Shown: positions 1-9,115 of the stretch, one piece after another
Layout: every line of letters begins with the position of its first letter
How positions within the stretch are numbered: position 1 is the first letter of the stretch
From: Anaerolineae bacterium
GTDB taxonomy: Bacteria; Chloroflexota; Anaerolineae; DRVO01
Length of the DNA: 64,000 nt
Assembly (NCBI GenBank): GCA_013178015.1
Contig: JABLXR010000002.1
Location: 62,001-126,000, forward strand
Direction of reading: 5' to 3'
Notes under the pieces: generated by a model
Told to the model about the DNA's origin: nothing
Databases searched by the model: none
The model's input: the letters and a program-made list of their open reading frames with translations, nothing else
Program-made: the position numbers and the translations under genes

Positions 1-989
1 ACGGCAAGGGCCTAGAGGCCGTCTGGCGCTGGTGTGGTGGTCGAGTGACCTCAGTGGGGCAGGCCATGCTGCGGGCTTACAGCCAGCACGAAGTTGACGT
101 CCTGGCTGCGGACGTGGGCTCCCTGAGTACCGTGCTGGTGCGGACCGGGCACGGGCAGGTCCTGGTGGAGCGGGGCTGCGGCGTGGGTCAGGGGGCGCAG
201 CCGTTGCTCCGGCGCATCGGTGCCGAGCGATTGCTGCGCTGGGTGGCCTCCGAGGGCGTGGGCGAGGCAGAGGTCACCGATTGGTCCCTCAACCGTCAAC
301 TGCGCCCCTGGCTGCGTGCGGCCACCCCGGGGGAAACAGAGATCGAACTGGCCTGTGCCCGCGAGGCTCTGGCAGCGGCGCGCCAAGGAGCTGCCGCTGC
401 GTGGCCCGAGGGCTGGGACTACCCCGACTCTCTGCCGCCGAGGGTGGACATGGTAGTGGGTGGCGGGGCCGTACTCGGTCGCTACCACTCCTTGGGACGA
501 GCTGCTGCCGTTCTAATTGACGGCCTGCAGCCTGTGGGCGTGTGCCGTCTGGCCCTGGACTGGGGCAACCTGGCCACCGGCCTGGGGGCGCTGGCCGAGC
601 TCAACCCGGCTGCCGTTCTGTCCGTCCTGGAGCGCGACGGGGTGTTGCTGCTGGGAACCCTGGTAGCTCCGGTGGGCCGGTCCCGCTTTGGCCGGGAGGT
701 TGTTCGGCTTACGGTCACGGGGCCGGGCAGCCAGACGGCGGAGCTCAAGGTGTCGGCCGGGGACCTAATCCGCTTGCCGCTGGCCCCGGGAGCGCGCGCC
801 CGAGCCACCATCCGCCCCGCTCGCGGCTATGACGTAGGGGCCGGTCGAGGGCAGGGGCTGGAGGTGGAGGTCGAGGGAGGACCGCTAGGGTTAGTGATCG
901 ACGCCCGGGGCCGTCCCCTACCGGAGAACGAGAACCCGGCCGACCGTCGGCGATTGCTGCGGCGCTGGCTGCAGGCGCTGGAGGCATAG
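1..989 (+). CDS. MutL-like (glutamate mutase L / ASKHA-fold) protein, C-terminal part
   Basis: The reading frame is open to the left edge (first full codon at 3), so this is the C-terminal ~328 residues of a longer protein; the GTG at 45 is probably internal. A second actin-like ATPase half begins at DVLAADVGSLSTVLV, a phosphate-1-type loop, and further on has the glycine-rich VVGGGAVLGRYHSLGRAA and the LQPVGVCRLALDWGNLATGLGAL stretch (quoted in parts), typical of the MutL-like proteins that are common in Chloroflexota. MutL of glutamate mutase is thought to be a reactivation or chaperone ATPase, but no mutase gene is visible here, so the role is unproven. The next gene follows after 2 nt, so the two are probably co-transcribed. 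Confidence 0.6.
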   Translation, partial: GKGLEAVWRWCGGRVTSVGQAMLRAYSQHEVDVLAADVGSLSTVLVRTGHGQVLVERGCGVGQGAQPLLRRIGAERLLRWVASEGVGEAEVTDWSLNRQLRPWLRAATPGETEIELACAREALAAARQGAAAAWPEGWDYPDSLPPRVDMVVGGGAVLGRYHSLGRAAAVLIDGLQPVGVCRLALDWGNLATGLGALAELNPAAVLSVLERDGVLLLGTLVAPVGRSRFGREVVRLTVTGPGSQTAELKVSAGDLIRLPLAPGARARATIRPARGYDVGAGRGQGLEVEVEGGPLGLVIDARGRPLPENENPADRRRLLRRWLQALEA

Positions 990-991
990 TC

Positions 992-2005
992 GTGCCGGTT
1001 GTGGGTGAGACGGTGGTCTGCAGGCGATGCGTGTACGGGGAGCGTTTCCGCCTGCCCGGACCGGGGCGAATAGTGGTCAGCACCGGCGACCTGGTGACGC
1101 CTGCAGACGTGGTGGGCTACATCGTGGAGCGGGGTCCGGTCAGGGTGGTCGATCTAGCCTCCGAGCTAGGCGTCGCTCCGCGGCGGGTGTCGCAGTGTCT
1201 GGTCATCAAGGAAGGCCAGTCGGTGCGGGCGGGCGAGCTGCTGGCCCGGCGGGAGGCTTGGCCCCGGCCGCGGGAAGTGAGGGCACCGGAGAACGCTCGC
1301 GCCATGGCTCTGGGGGGCGGCATGGCCCTTCTGGAAGGATTTCCCACCGAGGTTCCGGTGCGTGGCTGCCTTCCTGGCCGGGTGGGCGAGACCTACCCTG
1401 GGTCGGGAATGGAGGTGGAGGGGAGGGGAGCCGTGATCGTCGCTGCCGCCCTCCTGGGGAGCGAGTTCTCTGGCCCGCTGAAGATGGTTGGTCCGGTGCC
1501 GGAGAGAGTGTTGCGCCCCGAGCACGTAGATGCCACCGCCCACGGCGCCGTGCTAGTGGGCGGGATAGGGGAGGACCCAGCGGCGCTGACCCGGGCGGCC
1601 GAGTTCGGGGCCCAGGGAGTGGTCTTGGGTGGGGTGCCGGGGGCATGGGCTGAAACCCGGCTGCCGCTGCCTGTCGCGGTGGTGGAGGGTTTCGGCCGGG
1701 TGCCCATGAACCGGTTGGCCTTCGACCTCATGAATGAGATAGCGGGTAGTGTCGTGTATGTTCTGCGGCGAGGGAGTCGGTGTTGGCTCCTGTCGCCTCA
1801 AGACGTCGAGCCAGAGGGGCGCTTCGACCCTGTGGCGGTGAGGCGGCTCGAGGCGGAGGCTGAAGTCCGTCTGGTTGCTGGACCTCAGGCCGGGTCCATC
1901 GGTCGCGTAGTGGAGATACTGGCAGGGAGTGGCGAGGCGATCGTACAATTGGGCGGCAAGAGAGTGACCGCTCTGGTGGCGAACTGCGAGTTGGTCTTCC
2001 GCTAA
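992..2005 (+). CDS. conserved hypothetical protein, partner of MutL-like protein
   Basis: 337-residue protein with a GTG start 2 nt after the MutL-like stop. The N-terminus (residues about 15-50, GRIVVSTGDLVTPADVVGY) and a second patch (KEGQSVRAGELLARRE, about 72-87) look like biotinyl/lipoyl-type beta hairpins (GxxV..GDxV..GdvL). The C-terminus (about 290-330) resembles a KOW-like beta strand pair (GSIGRVVEI...AIVQLGGKRV). There is no signal peptide or membrane helix. I do not recognise a named family. Tight coupling to the ASKHA protein suggests the two work together, possibly as an assembly or reactivation pair; that is inference only. Confidence 0.6.
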   Translation: MPVVGETVVCRRCVYGERFRLPGPGRIVVSTGDLVTPADVVGYIVERGPVRVVDLASELGVAPRRVSQCLVIKEGQSVRAGELLARREAWPRPREVRAPENARAMALGGGMALLEGFPTEVPVRGCLPGRVGETYPGSGMEVEGRGAVIVAAALLGSEFSGPLKMVGPVPERVLRPEHVDATAHGAVLVGGIGEDPAALTRAAEFGAQGVVLGGVPGAWAETRLPLPVAVVEGFGRVPMNRLAFDLMNEIAGSVVYVLRRGSRCWLLSPQDVEPEGRFDPVAVRRLEAEAEVRLVAGPQAGSIGRVVEILAGSGEAIVQLGGKRVTALVANCELVFR

Positions 2006-2066
2006 GCTCCGGCGCTTTCTGAAGCGAGAGGGCCGGAATCATGCTGTGTGAGCGTGGAGGTAAGAG

Positions 2067-2747
2067 ATGGCTTCGTTGTTCGATAAGGTGCAGACTCTGA
2101 TCAGCGCCAACTTGCATGCACTCGTGGACAGAGCTCTCCGGTCCAACTCGCTGGCGGTCATAGACGAGTATATCCGCCAGATAGAGAACAGCCTCAGCGA
2201 CCTGGAGGACGCAGTAGCCACCGTAGGGGGCCAGCTGAAGACGCTGGAACGCAAGTACGAGGAGTACCGAGGCAAGGCGGACGAACTAGACCGCAACATA
2301 GACGTGCTCCTGGTAGAAGGACGCGAGGACCTGGCCGTGGCCGCCCAGAGCAAGCTGAACTCCACCCGGCGGCTGGCAGATAGCTATGGCGAGCAGGTGG
2401 AACGGCAGCGGGGTGAGTTCCGGCAACTGCAGGATGCCCGGCTCAAACTGGAGGCAAGGCTAGCTACTGTCAAGCAGGAGCGGGAGGAACTGCGGGCTCT
2501 GCTGGAGCTGGCACGGTCCAAGGAGATCGCCCAGCAGACGATGGCCTCGCTCGATTCCCTGGTCGGGGTGGGCGATAGCGATGTGGCCCGGGTGGCTGAT
2601 GCCATACGGGCGCGGCTGGACAAGGCGCAGGCGCGCAGCGAGATGAGCGCTAGCCGGCTGGATGCCCAGATGGACGAGTTGCTGGAGAGGCGGGACATTG
2701 ACTTGCAGCTGGCCGAGAGGCGGCGCCGGCTCGGTCTGGGCCAGTAA
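2067..2747 (+). CDS. pspA: PspA/IM30 family membrane-remodelling protein
   Basis: 226 residues, almost wholly coiled coil, starting MASLFDKVQTLISANLHALVDRA, an amphipathic N-terminal helix as in PspA/Vipp1, followed by ENSLSDLEDAVATVGGQLK and a long heptad-rich stalk to about 210. PspA/Vipp1 are ESCRT-III-like proteins that polymerise on the inner leaflet of the cytoplasmic membrane and repair or reshape it under envelope stress. The start is supported by GGAGG at 2055-2060, about 7 nt before ATG. It leads two genes for membrane-anchored substrate-binding-like proteins; no pspBC or pspF homologue is seen. Confidence 0.88.
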   Translation: MASLFDKVQTLISANLHALVDRALRSNSLAVIDEYIRQIENSLSDLEDAVATVGGQLKTLERKYEEYRGKADELDRNIDVLLVEGREDLAVAAQSKLNSTRRLADSYGEQVERQRGEFRQLQDARLKLEARLATVKQEREELRALLELARSKEIAQQTMASLDSLVGVGDSDVARVADAIRARLDKAQARSEMSASRLDAQMDELLERRDIDLQLAERRRRLGLGQ

Positions 2748-2789
2748 GCCGGAGCGAGGTGGCGCGGTAAGCCGGGCTCAAGGTGACAG

Positions 2790-3971
2790 ATGAACAGGAC
2801 TAGGCTGGTCTTTGTGCTGGTGCTGGTCGTCGCTCTGGCCATCGTAGGGCTATCCTACCTGATGCGGAGCGACGGCGGGTCCCTTGAGCCCGAGCGGCAG
2901 GAGCTGCTCGAGGTCCGAGTGGCCTGTGCCCTGCCGGTGGAGGCCTGGGTGCGGGAGGCTGCCGAAGCCTTCAATGCCGAGGGACATCGCCTCGACGGGG
3001 TTCCCATAACGGTCCAGGTGACGGCAGTGGACGGGCTGACGGCTAAGAGCCGGTTCGACCGGGGCGAGTTTGACCCTGTGCCTACGGCGTGGATACCGGA
3101 CAGCCGGTACCTGGTGGAGCTGGTCAACCTGACTCAGAAGCAGAAGCTGGGTCGGGATGTCTTCCTCACCGATGGGGAGTACCGGGCCCGACCCATAGCC
3201 ATCTCCCTATTTGCCTGGGGCATCTACGCCAGCCGGGCCGAGGTGTTGCGGGAGCGCTACGGGAAAGTGGACTGGGGCAGCATTCACGATGCCGCGGTGG
3301 CCCGAGGTGGCTGGGCCGAGTTGGGAGGTGATCCCTCTTGGGGGTACTTCAAGCTGGTGGTGCCGAACCCGCAGCGGAACGTAGGCGGGCTGGCGGCCAT
3401 GGTGGCGGCAGCGGGGGAGTACTACCAGAGCACTCGCATCGGGGTAGCGGATGTGACCAACCCCGAGTTCCAGCAATGGCTGGGAGAGCTGATGGGGGCG
3501 GTGACGGATTTCAGCAGTCTGAGCGCCTACTCAGCTGAGGACTTGGCCCTATTCGGCTACTCCATGGGCGACGGAGGCCAGCTTCTGGAGAGCGACCTGC
3601 TCTCGCACATGGAAGGGATACAGGCCCGCTGGCAGGAGCCACTAGTCATCATCTACCCTGAGTACATCACCTGGTTCGATTTCCCCTTCACCGTCTGGAT
3701 GGGTCAGGAGACGACGGCGGCGGAGAAGAATGCGGCGCTGGAGTTCGAGCGCTACCTCCTCTCTGAAGAGGTGCAGGCTCAGGCAGTGCTGCACGGGCTG
3801 CGGCCCGTGAACACGAGCGTCTCCCTGGACATTGAGGGCAGCCCCTTTGCCCGTTGGCGCGACCAGGGAATCGTGACCGTGGTGCCGCGCGCCTCCGCCA
3901 TGCGTTCCCCCGACCGCGACACCCTGGACACTCTGGTGCGCTGGTTCGAGCTCAACGTGACCCAGCGCTAA
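2790..3971 (+). CDS. membrane-anchored extracellular substrate-binding-like protein
   Basis: 393 residues. Residues 5-24 form one hydrophobic helix (LVFVLVLVVALAIVGLSYLM) with no lipobox cysteine, so it is probably anchored by an uncleaved signal-anchor helix. The rest has the two-lobe periplasmic-binding fold pattern of ABC solute-binding proteins: VRVACALPVEAWVREAAEAF near 45-65, WIPDSRYLVELVN, a PNPQRNVGGLAAM loop, and a C-terminal FERYLLSEEVQAQAVLHGLRP motif common to extracellular family 1 binding proteins. No permease or ATPase follows. The next gene is a paralogue fused to a vWA domain, which suggests a sensing or adhesive role rather than transport (inference). Confidence 0.72.
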   Translation: MNRTRLVFVLVLVVALAIVGLSYLMRSDGGSLEPERQELLEVRVACALPVEAWVREAAEAFNAEGHRLDGVPITVQVTAVDGLTAKSRFDRGEFDPVPTAWIPDSRYLVELVNLTQKQKLGRDVFLTDGEYRARPIAISLFAWGIYASRAEVLRERYGKVDWGSIHDAAVARGGWAELGGDPSWGYFKLVVPNPQRNVGGLAAMVAAAGEYYQSTRIGVADVTNPEFQQWLGELMGAVTDFSSLSAYSAEDLALFGYSMGDGGQLLESDLLSHMEGIQARWQEPLVIIYPEYITWFDFPFTVWMGQETTAAEKNAALEFERYLLSEEVQAQAVLHGLRPVNTSVSLDIEGSPFARWRDQGIVTVVPRASAMRSPDRDTLDTLVRWFELNVTQR

Positions 3972-3981
3972 GGAAACGCGC

Positions 3982-5643
3982 ATGCAGGCGCAGAGGTCCC
4001 GCACCAATCGCCTCTTGGCGATCCTGATAGCGCTCTTCTTGCTGGTGACGGCGCTCCCGTTCGCTTGCTGGTGGGGCGTCAGCCGCTTGCGAGCCGCCGT
4101 CACCCCGCCGGAGCCCACCCTCCGGCTGGCCTACTCGCCGGAGAAGAGAGAGCTGTTGGGGCAGTTGCTGGCCGAGTTCGAGCGACAGGGCCTGCGCACC
4201 ACCTCGGGAGCACCCATGCGGGTGGCAGCGGTGGAGATGCTGCCGGAGCGCATGGTCAGGCTTGCGGTCGAAGGCCAGGTGGACGCTGTCTGTCCTGATT
4301 CCTCGCTGTGGCTCACGGAGACGGACCAGCGCTGGCGGGAGACCTTTCTGCGAGACGGAGTGCTGGTGGGTGAGGCGGTGCGCTTCGCCATCAGCCCCGT
4401 GGTGATAGCCATGCGGGAAGACGTGGCTCGCTCTATGGGCTACCCCGATCGCCCCATCGGCTGGATGGACATCCTGGAGCGGGCCCAGACGGAGGAGACA
4501 TTCAGCTGGAGCCATGCTTCCACCAGCACGGCCAGCGGCCTGCTGGCTACACTGGCCCAGTTCTACGCCGGGGCAGGGAAGACGCGCGGACTCACCATCG
4601 AAGATGCCACGGCCCAGAGTACCCTCGACTACGTGGCGGCAGTGGAGGCCACGGTCAGGCACTACGGCGAGGGAGAGCTGGCCACTGTGGAGAGGGCCCT
4701 GGAGGAGGGCGAGCTGCGACTGGACGCCTTCGTGGTCCAGGAGCAACTGGTAGTGTACTACAATGGTCGCGGGAGCGACCGACTGGTGGCCGTCTATCCG
4801 GCCGAGGGCACTCTCTGGGAGGATCACCCCCTGGCCCTGCTGGAGCACGCGGACCTGGATAACGACGCCAGGGAGACGTTCCAGGCGCTCAAGCGTCACC
4901 TGCTTAGCCCGCAGTCTCAGCAGGTAGTGCTGCAGCACGGTTACCGCCCCGCGGACCTCTCGATCCCCCTGACCGGCGAGGGCTCCCCGCTGACTGCCGC
5001 CAACGGCGTAGACCCGACCCAGCCCAAGACGGTGTTGCAGATGCCGAGCGCGGCCGTGGTGGACGTGGTAAGGGACGTGTGGTGGTACACTAAGAGGCAC
5101 ACCAACGTGTTCCTGGTGGTGGATACCTCCGGTAGCATGCAGGGGGACAAGCTGGAGAACGCCCGCCTCGGGCTGCAGGCATTCGTAGAAGGCATCCGCG
5201 GCGACCAGGAACGGGTGGGCATGATCGAGTTCGCCAGCGAGGTGGGGCGGACCATTCCCCTGGACGAGTTGGGGCGCAACCGGAGGGCACTGGAACAAGC
5301 CATCGCCGACCTCTCGGCCGGGGGCAATACGGCACTTCTGGACGCAATTGGGGCGGCGTACGGCCGGCTGCAGAGCCTGGGCGATGCCGAGCGGATCAAC
5401 GCCATCGTGGTGATGACGGACGGGCGCGAGAATGCCTCCCGGACGCGGCTGCGGGAGCTGCAGATGCGCATTCGGGATGGGAACGCCCGCGGGGTGCCGG
5501 TGGTGGTGTTCTGCATCGCCTACGGCAGCGATGCCGATCTCGACACGCTGGCCGCCATCGCGGAGACGAGCGGCGGCCAAGTGCGTCGAGGAGACCTGAC
5601 CTCGATAGAAGAGCTCTACCGGCTGATCTCCACCTACTTCTGA
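3982..5643 (+). CDS. substrate-binding-like domain fused to von Willebrand factor A domain, membrane-anchored
   Basis: 553 residues. Residues about 11-33 are a signal-anchor helix (LLAILIALFLLVTALPFACWW). Residues about 45-350 repeat the substrate-binding pattern of the preceding gene (ISPVVIAMREDVARSMGY; FQALKRHLLSPQSQQVVLQHGYRP). Residues about 375-553 are a vWA domain with an intact MIDAS: DTSGSM at about 381, a Thr/Ser in GGNTALLDAI, and MTDGREN near 478. vWA domains bind divalent metal and mediate protein contacts, here outside the membrane. It lies 10 nt after its paralogue and ends the operon. The substrate is unknown. Confidence 0.75.
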   Translation: MQAQRSRTNRLLAILIALFLLVTALPFACWWGVSRLRAAVTPPEPTLRLAYSPEKRELLGQLLAEFERQGLRTTSGAPMRVAAVEMLPERMVRLAVEGQVDAVCPDSSLWLTETDQRWRETFLRDGVLVGEAVRFAISPVVIAMREDVARSMGYPDRPIGWMDILERAQTEETFSWSHASTSTASGLLATLAQFYAGAGKTRGLTIEDATAQSTLDYVAAVEATVRHYGEGELATVERALEEGELRLDAFVVQEQLVVYYNGRGSDRLVAVYPAEGTLWEDHPLALLEHADLDNDARETFQALKRHLLSPQSQQVVLQHGYRPADLSIPLTGEGSPLTAANGVDPTQPKTVLQMPSAAVVDVVRDVWWYTKRHTNVFLVVDTSGSMQGDKLENARLGLQAFVEGIRGDQERVGMIEFASEVGRTIPLDELGRNRRALEQAIADLSAGGNTALLDAIGAAYGRLQSLGDAERINAIVVMTDGRENASRTRLRELQMRIRDGNARGVPVVVFCIAYGSDADLDTLAAIAETSGGQVRRGDLTSIEELYRLISTYF

Positions 5644-6070
5644 CATCGCCTACCTGAACGCTCGCGCGGCCATGGCGAGCCATCCTCGCGTGGCCTCGGA
5701 ACGTCACCGTGTCACCTGACTCTCTTCCTCCATCAGCCAGAGCTCCTCGGTGTCTCCCTCATGCCCTTCGCGTCTCCCCCTCCCGTATCGCCCGGAGCCC
5801 CCTCGCGTCACTCTGAACCCTCCTGTGTCATCCTGAACCACCGGCGTCGCTCTGAAGACCCTCGCGTTACCCTGAACGAAGTGAAGGGCCTCCGGATTCG
5901 GAGACCAGGGTGCCCGCTCTCCTCCGGCCCTTCCCTCGGCATAACGCGCAGAGGCAGACGCAAGCTCGGCCGGAGATGGGGATCGTGGGGACACGTGCAT
6001 CGGTGGGCACGGGGGCTGGGCTGGCATGCCCAGCCGGCCCGGTACTTGCATGTCTCCGGTATCGAGGTGC
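5644..6070. other. intergenic region with short tandem repeat
   Basis: No gene-like frame. The stretch holds the 20 bp-period array at 5807-5884 (annotated separately) and AC-rich, repetitive sequence before it (GTGTCACCTGACTC at about 5708). No terminator with a T tract is seen after the vWA gene. Confidence 0.5.
5807..5884. repeat. degenerate ~20 bp tandem array, GTCAYYCTGAAC type
   Basis: Four phased copies start at 5807 (GTCACTCTGAAC), 5827 (GTCATCCTGAAC), 5846 (GTCGCTCTGAAG) and 5866 (GTTACCCTGAACGAAGTGAAGGG). The last copy carries the CTGAACGAAGTGAAGG extension, a short interspersed motif often seen between genes in environmental bacterial genomes. Confidence 0.7.
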
Positions 6071-6099
6071 TTGTGACCGGTCGGGCCGGCTGCTATAAT
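6071..6099 (+). promoter_or_regulatory. sigma70-like promoter of the glycosyltransferase
   Basis: TTGTGA at 6071-6076, 17 bp spacer, perfect TATAAT at 6094-6099. Transcription should begin near 6106, so the GTG at 6107 would be leaderless while ATG 6140 has a 33 nt leader. Confidence 0.75.
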
Positions 6100-6139
6100 C
6101 GCGCCCGTGCCTCAGGCTCGTGATGCGAACGTGGCCGAG

Positions 6140-7264
6140 ATGCAGGCGCACATCGGCCTCAACGCCCAGTTGCTGGCTCCTCCCGGCACGTATCGGAGCG
6201 CCGGGATCAGTGGGTACATCGCCGGCCTGCTGAGCCACCTTCCCGGGGCAGCGCCTGACATGCGGTTCACCGCCTGGCTGCCTCATCGGCGGGACGGTTG
6301 GGAGGGCGTGCGGCAGCAGGAGGTGCGCCTGGCGGGCAGCAAAGTAGTGGCGCGGCTGCTATGGGAGCAGACCGCACTGGTGGCAGAGGCCAGGAAGCTA
6401 GGGGTGGACCTCCTGCATGGTCTGGCGTTCTCTCTACCCCTAGCCTCATCCATTCCGGCTGTGGTCACCGTGCCGGACATGAGCTTCCGGCTTTTCCCTC
6501 GCTATCACGCTCGGGGCCGCCGGGTGTATCTCAACTTGATCACCCGCCTGGCAGTGACCAGGGCGCGGGGAGTGATAGCGATTTCGGAGAGCACCAAGCG
6601 CGACGTCTGTCGGTTACTGGCGGTGCCGGCAGACAAGGTCCAGGTGACTTACCTGGGGGTGGCGGATCACTTCAGGCCGCCGAGTCCGGGAGAGCGAGCG
6701 GGGTTTCTAGATGAGGTGGGCCTCGGGCGGTACATCTACTACCAGGGCACGCTGGAACCCCGCAAGAACCTTCTCACCCTGGTGGAAGCGTTTCGTCTGT
6801 TGCGCCAGTCGGGCTGGGAGGATCACAGACTGGTTCTGGGGGGCGCGCCCGGCTGGGGATACAGGAGCATCTACCAGGCGGTCGAGCGTTATGGGCTAAC
6901 CGAGGACGTGATCTTTCTGGGCTATGTACCGCCGGAGCAGAGTCCCCGCTGGTACGGGGGGGCCGACCTGTTCGTCTATCCCTCTGCCTACGAAGGCTTT
7001 GGGCTATCTCCTTTGGAGGCCATGGCTTGTGGGACCCCGGTGATCACGGCCGACACCTCGTCTCTCCCCGAGGTAGTGGGCGAGGCGGGGCTGATGGTCA
7101 GCCCGGGCGACGTCCGGGCGCTGATGGAGGCCATACTACGGCTGCTGAGCGACACCAACCTCCGAACGGAGCTCATCGGGAAAGGTCTGGAACGCGCCAG
7201 GAAGTTCACCTGGGCGAAGACGGCGAGGGCCACCTCGAGCTTGTACATCCGTTGCCTCGGGTGA
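6140..7264 (+). CDS. glycosyltransferase family 4 (GT-B)
   Basis: 374 residues from ATG 6140. An in-frame GTG at 6107 would add 11 residues, but that codon coincides with the predicted transcription start. The protein opens HIGLNAQLL, then YRSAGISGYI, the usual N-terminal loop of GT4 enzymes. The C-terminal Rossmann lobe has YYQGTLEPRKNLLTLVEAF, GAPGWGYRS, VIFLGYVPPEQ and YPSAYEGFGLSPLEAMACGTPVI (quoted in parts), with the E-x7-E nucleotide-sugar binding motif. It acts in the cytoplasm, transferring a sugar to a lipid-linked or nascent glycan. Its stop overlaps the start of the sugar-phosphate transferase, so both belong to one exopolysaccharide operon. Confidence 0.88.
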   Translation: MQAHIGLNAQLLAPPGTYRSAGISGYIAGLLSHLPGAAPDMRFTAWLPHRRDGWEGVRQQEVRLAGSKVVARLLWEQTALVAEARKLGVDLLHGLAFSLPLASSIPAVVTVPDMSFRLFPRYHARGRRVYLNLITRLAVTRARGVIAISESTKRDVCRLLAVPADKVQVTYLGVADHFRPPSPGERAGFLDEVGLGRYIYYQGTLEPRKNLLTLVEAFRLLRQSGWEDHRLVLGGAPGWGYRSIYQAVERYGLTEDVIFLGYVPPEQSPRWYGGADLFVYPSAYEGFGLSPLEAMACGTPVITADTSSLPEVVGEAGLMVSPGDVRALMEAILRLLSDTNLRTELIGKGLERARKFTWAKTARATSSLYIRCLG

Positions 7265-8700
7265 AGCCTAACGGCCGCGGCTGGGTGGTTCGCTGGCTGA
7301 CACCGGCCATGATTGTCGCCGATGTGCTGGCCATCAACCTGGCCTTCTACCTGGCGTACTTCTTGCGCTATGTGGCCGAGTGGCCCACCCCGGTGGAAGA
7401 CGTCTACTCCTTTCCCTATCGCTACTACTTCCCCGTGGGGCTGGTGCTGTCCGCGGTGTTGTTGCTGCTGTTCCACGCTCAGGGGCTCTATGCCAACAAG
7501 GTGGGTGACACCTGGCTCGATGAGTTCCAGCGCGTGGTGAGCGGCACCGCCACTGGCATCGTGGGCTTGGTGGTGTTCTACTTCTTCTACCGCCCGAATG
7601 TCTATTCCCGCCTGGTGTTCTTCTATGCCGCTGTGCTCATCGTGGTGGTGTTGGCGTTGAATCGCTGGGCCAAGTACCTGGCCCTGGACTACCTTCGGCG
7701 GCGCGGCATCGGCGTAGCCCGAGTGCTCATCGTCGGCGCTGGTGAGGTCGGCCGGGCCGTGATGCGCAGCATAGTAGCGCATCCGGAGCTGGGCTACCAG
7801 ATCGTCGGCTTCGTGGACGATGACCCCGAGGCAGGCGCCACCAATCTGGGCCGCTTCGTCGGGCTAGGTCCTACCGCCAACCTGCCCCGCGTCATACAGG
7901 AACTGGAGGTGGATGAGGTCATCATCACCCTTCCCTGGATGCATCACCGCAAGATACTGACTGTGGTCAACCAGTGTCAGGAACGCGATGTGCGGGCTCG
8001 GGTGGTGCCTGACCTGTTCCAGATGAGCCTGTCGCGGGTGGATTTCCACGACCTGGATGGCATTCCGCTGCTAGGCGTGCGGGACACTCACATAAGCGAC
8101 TTCGACCGGGCCGTCAAGAGGATAGTGGACCTGATCGGCGGGCTGATAGGGGTGCTGGTGCTGGGGTTGATCTTCCTGCCGGTGGCGGCAGCCATCAAGC
8201 TGGATTCGCCCGGGCCGGTGCTCTACGCCCAGGAAAGGGTGGGGCGCGGTGGCCGGCGCTTCCGCATCTACAAGTTCCGCTCTATGCAAGCGGATGCCGA
8301 CGAGCAGTTGGATGGCCTCCGGGGCCGCAATGAGGCCGATGGTCCTCTGTTCAAGATGAGATTCGACCCTCGCTGTACCCGGGTGGGCCGGATCCTGCGC
8401 CGACTGAGCTTGGACGAATGGCCGCAGTTCATCAACGTACTCCGCGGCGAGATGAGCTTGGTGGGGCCTAGGCCCAACCGACCCTCGGAAGTGGAGGCAT
8501 ACAAGCCCTGGCACCGCCGCCGGCTGGAGGTGAAACCGGGCGTCACGGGCCTCTGGCAGGTAGGCGGGCGGAGCGAGGTGCCCTTCGACGAGATGGTGCT
8601 GCTCGACATCTACTACATCGAGAACTGGTCGGTGGGCCTGGACCTCAAGGTGATTCTGCGCACTATCCCCCACATTGTCTTCGGGCGCGGCGCCTACTGA
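7261..8700 (+). CDS. polyprenyl-phosphate sugar-phosphate transferase (undecaprenyl-phosphate glucose phosphotransferase type)
   Basis: 479 residues. I chose GTG 7261, which overlaps the preceding TGA, because a family-like N-terminus with membrane helices starts right after it; the upstream extension is out of family. There are four to five N-terminal helices (about 15-130), a Rossmann-like CoA-binding-3 domain at about 155-290 (VARVLIVGAGEVGRAVMRSI), another helix near 285-310 (IGGLIGVLVLGLIFLPVAA), and the bacterial sugar transferase domain with QERVGRGGRRFRIYKFRSM, LDEWPQFINVL and MSLVGPRPNRP. Such enzymes add the first sugar-1-phosphate to undecaprenyl phosphate to start polysaccharide assembly. 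Confidence 0.9.
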   Translation: MKPNGRGWVVRWLTPAMIVADVLAINLAFYLAYFLRYVAEWPTPVEDVYSFPYRYYFPVGLVLSAVLLLLFHAQGLYANKVGDTWLDEFQRVVSGTATGIVGLVVFYFFYRPNVYSRLVFFYAAVLIVVVLALNRWAKYLALDYLRRRGIGVARVLIVGAGEVGRAVMRSIVAHPELGYQIVGFVDDDPEAGATNLGRFVGLGPTANLPRVIQELEVDEVIITLPWMHHRKILTVVNQCQERDVRARVVPDLFQMSLSRVDFHDLDGIPLLGVRDTHISDFDRAVKRIVDLIGGLIGVLVLGLIFLPVAAAIKLDSPGPVLYAQERVGRGGRRFRIYKFRSMQADADEQLDGLRGRNEADGPLFKMRFDPRCTRVGRILRRLSLDEWPQFINVLRGEMSLVGPRPNRPSEVEAYKPWHRRRLEVKPGVTGLWQVGGRSEVPFDEMVLLDIYYIENWSVGLDLKVILRTIPHIVFGRGAY

Positions 8701-8769
8701 ACGAGCGGCAGCGAGGGAGCGCCTTCCGACCCGGAAACGCTGCCGGACTCCGGGGCCCATGGGGCTGCG

Positions 8770-8832
8770 CGTAGGGATGGTGCGGAACTCGGGGCAGGCA
8801 CCGAGCGCACACAGCACAGCTGCGCCCCTACG
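8770..8832. repeat. GTAGGGGC-type inverted repeat, copy 1
   Basis: CGTAGGG and CCCTACG (7 bp arms) flank GGGGCAGGCACCGAG. It resembles the copies at 11892-11945 and 44454-44505 in arm sequence and in the internal GGCAGG/TGCCTGCC words. Confidence 0.5.
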
Positions 8833-8909
8833 GGTCCGTGCCTCTTCTCTACGCCGCCCCGTGTTCTTCGTCTCCCCTCAAGAGAAATGCGGCCATGAAA
8901 GCGCTGCGA

Positions 8910-8939
8910 TTGGCGCGGCGCATACTGCCCCTTTAGAAT
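8910..8939 (+). promoter_or_regulatory. candidate purA promoter
   Basis: TTGGCG at 8910-8915, 18 bp spacer, TAGAAT at 8934-8939. It would give a leader of about 170 nt before purA. Confidence 0.5.
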
Positions 8940-9115
8940 GTCCTCGCTTCACAGGCCACGCCAACACAGCGCTGGCCCTCGGGCGACCGCCTCGGCACGC
9001 CTGAGGTCGTGCTGCGCGGTCGGCCACTCGCGACCCAGGAGACGGCGCGCGGGCCACACTTCCACCGCCAAATTGGACGGCGGTGGTGTCCCGGCCGGCT
9101 CAGACGGAGGCTCCC

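Follow-up and report, generated by a model that had tools for sequence, protein, structure and literature searches.

Introduction

Most of the inputs described for Psp systems are membrane proteins or two-component systems, and the cues that determine when and where PspA-type ESCRT-III proteins act are an open question outside a few model bacteria. In Bacillus subtilis, PspA is localised by the SPFH protein YdjI together with the membrane proteins YdjG and YdjH, and YdjH interacts with PspA (PMC8581546). According to a survey of Psp systems, some PspA operons carry an ATP-binding cassette (ABC) ATPase, a permease and a PBPB-OmpA protein, and PspA is also tied to chaperone-like band-7 partners (PMC11237479). 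Here we describe an operon in which pspA is followed by the genes of two membrane-anchored solute-binding proteins, SBP and SBP-vWA, the second carrying a C-terminal, integrin-like von Willebrand factor A (vWA) domain. It lies in an Anaerolineae bacterium (Chloroflexota), within a stretch of 64,000 nucleotides of contig JABLXR010000002.1 (assembly GCA_013178015.1, positions 62,001 to 126,000, forward strand), hereafter the window, and it offers testable candidates for a PspA input. The initial annotation of the window could not match the arrangement to a described system, and a full-text literature search likewise returned no description of an SBP/vWA-PspA operon. It is also absent from the main text of two genome-wide Psp surveys (PMC11237479 and PMC9239133), the supplementary tables lying outside this check, and may be tabulated there without comment.

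A conserved operon that lacks a transporter

In the window, pspA, SBP and SBP-vWA follow each other on the same strand with spacings of 42 and 10 bp (Table 1). No terminator-like site was found between them on the + strand, no known RNA element across window positions 1-9000, and no ABC permease or ABC ATPase in the run. SBP and SBP-vWA are paralogues by profile-profile comparison (hhalign 99.8%, E-value (E) 3e-29), so that open reading frames (ORFs), Pfam matches and hhalign together bear out the initial annotation, which had described pspA followed by two paralogous, anchored binding proteins devoid of permease and ATPase.

Full-length SBP-vWA is present in 31 of 60 genomes from the genus, family and class of the window (its own genome counted), mostly from different families, and nearly all of those 31 with a sufficiently long contig keep the order pspA-SBP-SBP-vWA. 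A scan of GTDB species genomes yielded 80 loci, all but one labelled as Chloroflexota groups (Anaerolineae, Caldilineales, Ardenticatenia, Thermoflexales and others); these loci, which overlap in part with the 60-genome set, are not independent draws, because they were picked by similarity to the window SBP-vWA and share ancestry. The counts that follow refer to testable loci, whose flanks reach far enough to be scored. SBP directly precedes SBP-vWA in 70 of 71 and pspA lies upstream in 62 of 67, and two further genes, F3 and F6, follow downstream in 68 of 70 and 55 of 63, respectively. The usual operon is therefore pspA-SBP-SBP-vWA-F3-F6, with median gaps of 160 bp (pspA to SBP), 9 bp (SBP to SBP-vWA), 44 bp (SBP-vWA to F3) and 82 bp (F3 to F6). 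Because this order recurs in dozens of Chloroflexota families, the gene run is far beyond chance and is not a peculiarity of the window genome. The three-gene unit first recognised is real and conserved, although incomplete, F3 being linked to it as tightly as the binding proteins are.

Presence and absence of the genes follow the same pattern. Among 41 class-level genomes, SBP-vWA is found in 25 (truncated or divergent in two of them), all of which also encode PspA; one genome has PspA alone and 15 have neither (Fisher p ~3e-10, a value that overstates independence because the genomes are phylogenetically related). F3 accompanies SBP-vWA in 24 of the 25 genomes and is absent from all 16 others. 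PspC, used as a negative control, is not linked (17 of 26 genomes with PspA vs 6 of 15 without it); no match to PspC (PF04024) was found in genomes G000, G001 and G002, and it is missing from the window genome.

ABC importers are the usual partners of SBP and LivK folds, and a possible explanation of the operon is that SBP, SBP-vWA and F6 feed a permease encoded elsewhere. The 80 loci were scanned for ORFs with at least five transmembrane (TM) segments and for ABC ATPase motifs. No recurring importer was detected among them, only isolated multi-TM ORFs, one ABC-type ATPase on the opposite strand in the flank of one locus, and an inserted ABC-2 exporter in locus L103; the count of ABC motifs is a lower bound, because the crude motif test missed the L103 ATPase. 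The operon thus provides the type II binding-protein fold of an ABC importer and lacks the cognate permease and ATPase, and a constant permease companion that would make these genes ordinary transporter parts is not found.

The PspA subfamily

The operon PspA belongs to the PspA/IM30 (bacterial ESCRT-III) family and begins with an N-terminal amphipathic stretch, MASLFDKVQTLISANLHALVDRAL. In the tree it forms a distinct subfamily, separated from canonical paralogues with branch support of 100/99, and it is the only PspA in most of the genomes examined. One more PspA copy (L232) clusters with the operon type; it comes from G014, a genome in which a contig edge marks the start of the main locus. 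The window's own genome contains a second PspA of the canonical type on contig C41 (L070, 14728-15441, 149 bits to PF04012), which sits on a branch apart from the operon PspA. Two loci (L060, 5409-6926, and L168, 5889-7298) have a tandem pair of PspA-like genes ahead of SBP, the second of them strongly diverged.

The binding proteins

Both SBP and SBP-vWA begin with a single N-terminal hydrophobic anchor. That of SBP has no cysteine. In SBP-vWA, Cys26 is nearly invariant in the alignment, in the non-canonical context LPFAC, and judging from the sequence the protein may be lipidated at this residue. The AlphaFold model of SBP-vWA (mean predicted local distance difference test score, pLDDT, 91) matches type II binding proteins of the PDB (for example PotF and the sulfate-binding protein) as well as vWA domains in Foldseek searches. 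The vWA domain had been noted as carrying an intact metal ion-dependent adhesion site (MIDAS), and its five residues D381, S383, S385, T450 and D480 are indeed identical in 60 of 60 aligned SBP-vWA homologues. In the binding domain, S107, S108, H178, E254, D281 and H282 are invariant or nearly so, and SBP orthologues share 61-78% identity across families. Among solved structures, sulfate-binding proteins come closest to the SBP part in sequence, with E of only 0.04-0.08. In another Chloroflexota class (L177-L179; genomes G187, G107 and G125), an SBP homologue is contained within open frames of ~800 amino acids, which suggests further SBP fusions.

F3 and F6

F3 (~280 amino acids) consists of two N-terminal hydrophobic helices separated by a short loop and followed by a helical domain of ~200 residues, as seen both in its sequence and in a structural model with pLDDT 84. 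Hydrophobicity and charge indicate that the helical domain probably faces the cytoplasm. F6 matches Peripla_BP_6 (E 3e-49) and is a lipoprotein of the LivK type. pspA and F3 are adjacent without binding proteins in L089, L090, L091 and L197, which belong to genomes of a divergent SBP-vWA branch (G042, G021 and G056) and to G077. Elsewhere in the phylum, in classes other than that of the window, the fetched stretches contain SBP, SBP-vWA and a gene resembling F3 (hhalign E 2e-6) but no pspA. Since F3 follows PspA in some genomes and the binding proteins in others, it is the natural link between both.

Regulators, inserted genes and neighbours in the window

Upstream of pspA, 28 of 59 loci carry F10, a STAND-like ATPase equipped with a winged helix of the OmpR type, and/or a histidine kinase. 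NfeD and/or SPFH genes are located downstream of F3 in L116, L119, L128 and L153, and directly after pspA-F3 in L090; an SPFH gene accompanies PspA in L090, L116, L119 and L153, and none is present in the window operon. At two loci without pspA (L157, 3247-5899, and L164, 6231-7574), WD40 and protein-kinase-like genes fill the slot before SBP. In a further Chloroflexota genome (G069), the gene that separates F3 from SBP-vWA (L196, 3164-4795) encodes a PBP-like (NMT1) protein that matches OmpA weakly and resembles the PBPB-OmpA proteins that PMC11237479 places with PspA.

In the window, pspA is immediately preceded by F18 and F16, a conserved pair. F16, which could be assigned to no family, is the upstream neighbour in nine of 59 other loci, and it is possibly co-transcribed with pspA in the window genome, yet no core part of the operon. 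No MoxR AAA+ ATPase was seen among the immediate neighbours of the run in the window, where no dedicated MoxR search was made.

Table 1. Position and supporting evidence of the operon genes, their domains and the upstream neighbours in the window.
Feature	Position	Strand	Evidence or remark
pspA, 226 aa	2067..2747	+	PF04012 (PspA_IM30) E 5e-18
SBP, membrane-anchored type II solute-binding protein, 393 aa	2790..3971	+	PF13531 (SBP_bac_11) E 1e-5, barely above cut-off
SBP N-terminal signal anchor (TM)	2796..2864	+	hydrophobic stretch LVFVLVLVVALAIVGLSYL in the sequence
SBP-vWA, membrane-anchored, C-terminal vWA, 553 aa	3982..5643	+	PF13531 E 2.7e-13; PF00092 E 9e-17
SBP-vWA N-terminal membrane helix, residues 5-38	3994..4095	+	model secondary structure, alignment, sequence
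SBP_bac_11 domain of SBP-vWA, residues 47-322	4120..4947	+	Pfam
vWA domain of SBP-vWA, residues 375-531	5104..5574	+	Pfam
MIDAS DxSxS (D381, S383, S385)	5122..5136	+	identical in 60/60 homologues
MIDAS T450	5329..5331	+	60/60 homologues
MIDAS D480	5419..5421	+	60/60 homologues
F16, 337 aa, weak C-terminal KOW/SH3-like match	992..2005	+	61 bp upstream of pspA
F18, MutL-like (PF13941), C-terminal part	45..989	+	gene extends beyond the window start; 2-bp gap to F16

Relatives outside Chloroflexota

SBP-vWA fusions are annotated elsewhere as "substrate-binding and VWA domain-containing protein" in Actinomycetota, Deinococcota and Proteobacteria. The operon of the betaproteobacteria Variovorax and Sphaerotilus runs from SBP through TelA (PF05816, E 1e-35) and SBP-vWA to a small membrane protein, that of Deinococcus from SBP through SBP-vWA to a small membrane protein; the gene annotated as "hypothetical" upstream in these relatives encodes a paralogue of SBP (hhalign 98%, E 4e-13). 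Because the outer module is found without PspA in other phyla, it appears to predate its link with PspA or to be more mobile than that link. In Betaproteobacteria TelA may have a comparable function on the inner side, two genera being a thin sample. The possibility that TelA also replaces PspA at the Chloroflexota loci without pspA was considered and discarded, given the kinase-like and WD40 genes at L157 and L164 and the presence of TelA in 0 of 41 Chloroflexota genomes. F3 was also compared with the downstream small membrane protein of Proteobacteria and Actinomycetota, with no detectable homology; the only copy detectably matching F3 in those comparisons was one from another Chloroflexota class.

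Possible function

The gene order, its conservation and the near-constant company of PspA and F3 are consistent with a Psp-type system for membrane maintenance or stress in which F3 would anchor PspA and the binding proteins would provide the outside input, a proposal to which we give an even chance. SBP and SBP-vWA would be held by their N-terminal helices at the outer face of the cytoplasmic membrane, where together with the lipoprotein F6 they could form a binding or docking complex, the MIDAS of the vWA domain supplying a metal-dependent protein contact. F3, with its two predicted TM segments, would cross the membrane twice, and its ~200-residue cytoplasmic domain could anchor or release PspA in a manner comparable to YdjH of B. 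subtilis. A change in the cargo of the binding proteins, or in a link to the cell wall, would then shift the F3-PspA state, and PspA would polymerise on the damaged membrane, with expression set by the STAND-ATPase/winged-helix regulator or by the histidine kinase. A more specific form of this proposal, a transmembrane signalling device for ESCRT-III-like repair in which the paired surface binding proteins and the MIDAS sense a ligand and control PspA through F3, is tentative, and we hold it somewhat likelier to be wrong than right. The envelope-stress interpretation put forward in the initial annotation gains support from the operon-specific PspA, the NfeD/SPFH insertions and the TelA of the betaproteobacterial trio.

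Several observations weigh against the proposed Psp-type system. Besides the shared ancestry behind the co-occurrence test, F3 reaches the cut-off of no Pfam family and matches no PDB fold at E <= 1e-3. In the window genome F3 and F6 are adjacent on another contig (C18), detached from pspA, and they are likewise on a contig other than that of pspA in G002, which represents a second genus of the family (L088). The outer module can do without PspA as a neighbour, because in other classes SBP, SBP-vWA and the F3-like gene lie in fetched stretches that lack pspA. An attempt to name the SBP ligand also failed: sequence matches reach E 0.04 at best and fold matches are diverse, the best of them binding polyamines, sugars, iron or sulfate, and therefore no ligand can be named.

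Among the alternatives, a structural and non-sensory role survives best, although we consider it rather improbable. SBP, SBP-vWA and F6 would constitute an adhesion or chaperone complex whose binding folds no longer exchange ligand, tying the PspA-F3 membrane (in some genomes with SPFH/NfeD) to the cell wall, the S-layer or exported proteins. The extreme conservation of SBP across families and the invariant MIDAS would fit such a role, as would the PBP-like protein of L196, its weak OmpA match being to a peptidoglycan-binding domain, and the chaperone-like band-7 partners of PspA reported in PMC11237479. However, the six conserved polar residues of the binding domain are of a type that occurs in ligand clefts, and together with the normal Peripla_BP_6 character of F6 they argue for retained ligand binding.

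A resistance module, in which the binding proteins would catch a toxic oxyanion or a membrane-active peptide outside the cell and PspA (TelA in Proteobacteria) would limit membrane damage, is clearly unlikely. It would agree with the grouping of SBP, TelA, SBP-vWA and a two-TM protein in the betaproteobacterial relatives, with the higher sensitivity of a Listeria TelA mutant to nisin and tellurite (cited in PMC12791056), and with sulfate-binding proteins as closest solved relatives of the SBP part. This oxyanion hint is nevertheless weak at such E-values, and neither the Chloroflexota genomes without any TelA nor the pspA-less slots, occupied by other genes, fit with it.

Less probable still, and very unlikely in our opinion, is that the binding proteins are orphan transporter parts, with pspA as a chance neighbour or as protection against leakage. 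PspA operons with an ABC ATPase, a permease and PBPB-OmpA, as given in PMC11237479, speak for it, but the 80 loci contain no importer, a vWA fusion is unusual among importer SBPs, and the co-occurrence with PspA and F3 is near-perfect. A function in anti-phage defence was discarded, as only coiled-coil-type matches were obtained for PspA and none for the other proteins.

If the signalling device exists, it would be a new one. The same outer trio is present in other phyla with TelA replacing PspA, and such relatives would give a context for TelA proteins, which are poorly understood. The operon is thus a possible undescribed coupling of an outside signal to membrane repair through two or three surface-anchored binding proteins, and F3 is a new candidate PspA anchor, co-inherited with PspA in this class.

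Comparison with known systems

The operon shares the PspA/IM30 effector with the classical Psp (PspABC/PspF) and Lia systems, as well as a regulator or histidine kinase near about half of the Chloroflexota loci; it differs from them in that no PspB/C or Toastrack gene was recognised in it, and the classical PspC partner is neither part of it nor correlated with it. The substrate-binding/VWA loci of other phyla have in common with it the SBP-vWA fusion and a small helical membrane protein downstream, without detectable homology to the Chloroflexota F3, and in Betaproteobacteria and Deinococcus also the SBP paralogue upstream, whereas their partner is TelA (in Betaproteobacteria) or none of this kind, instead of PspA. 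The PspA/Snf7-AAA-ABC-PBPB-OmpA operons described in PMC11237479 likewise combine a PspA-like protein with a periplasmic-binding-type domain, but they include an ABC ATPase, a permease and an AAA+ ATPase, for which the Chloroflexota operon has a vWA fusion instead. In pspA-ydjGHI of B. subtilis a small membrane protein also follows PspA and is its likely anchor (PMC8581546), F3 being likened to it by gene position, and SPFH genes, as well as NfeD, are present at several Chloroflexota loci. The B. subtilis operon has no SBP, vWA or LivK-type protein, while in the Chloroflexota operon these are the usual companions of PspA and the SPFH protein is optional.

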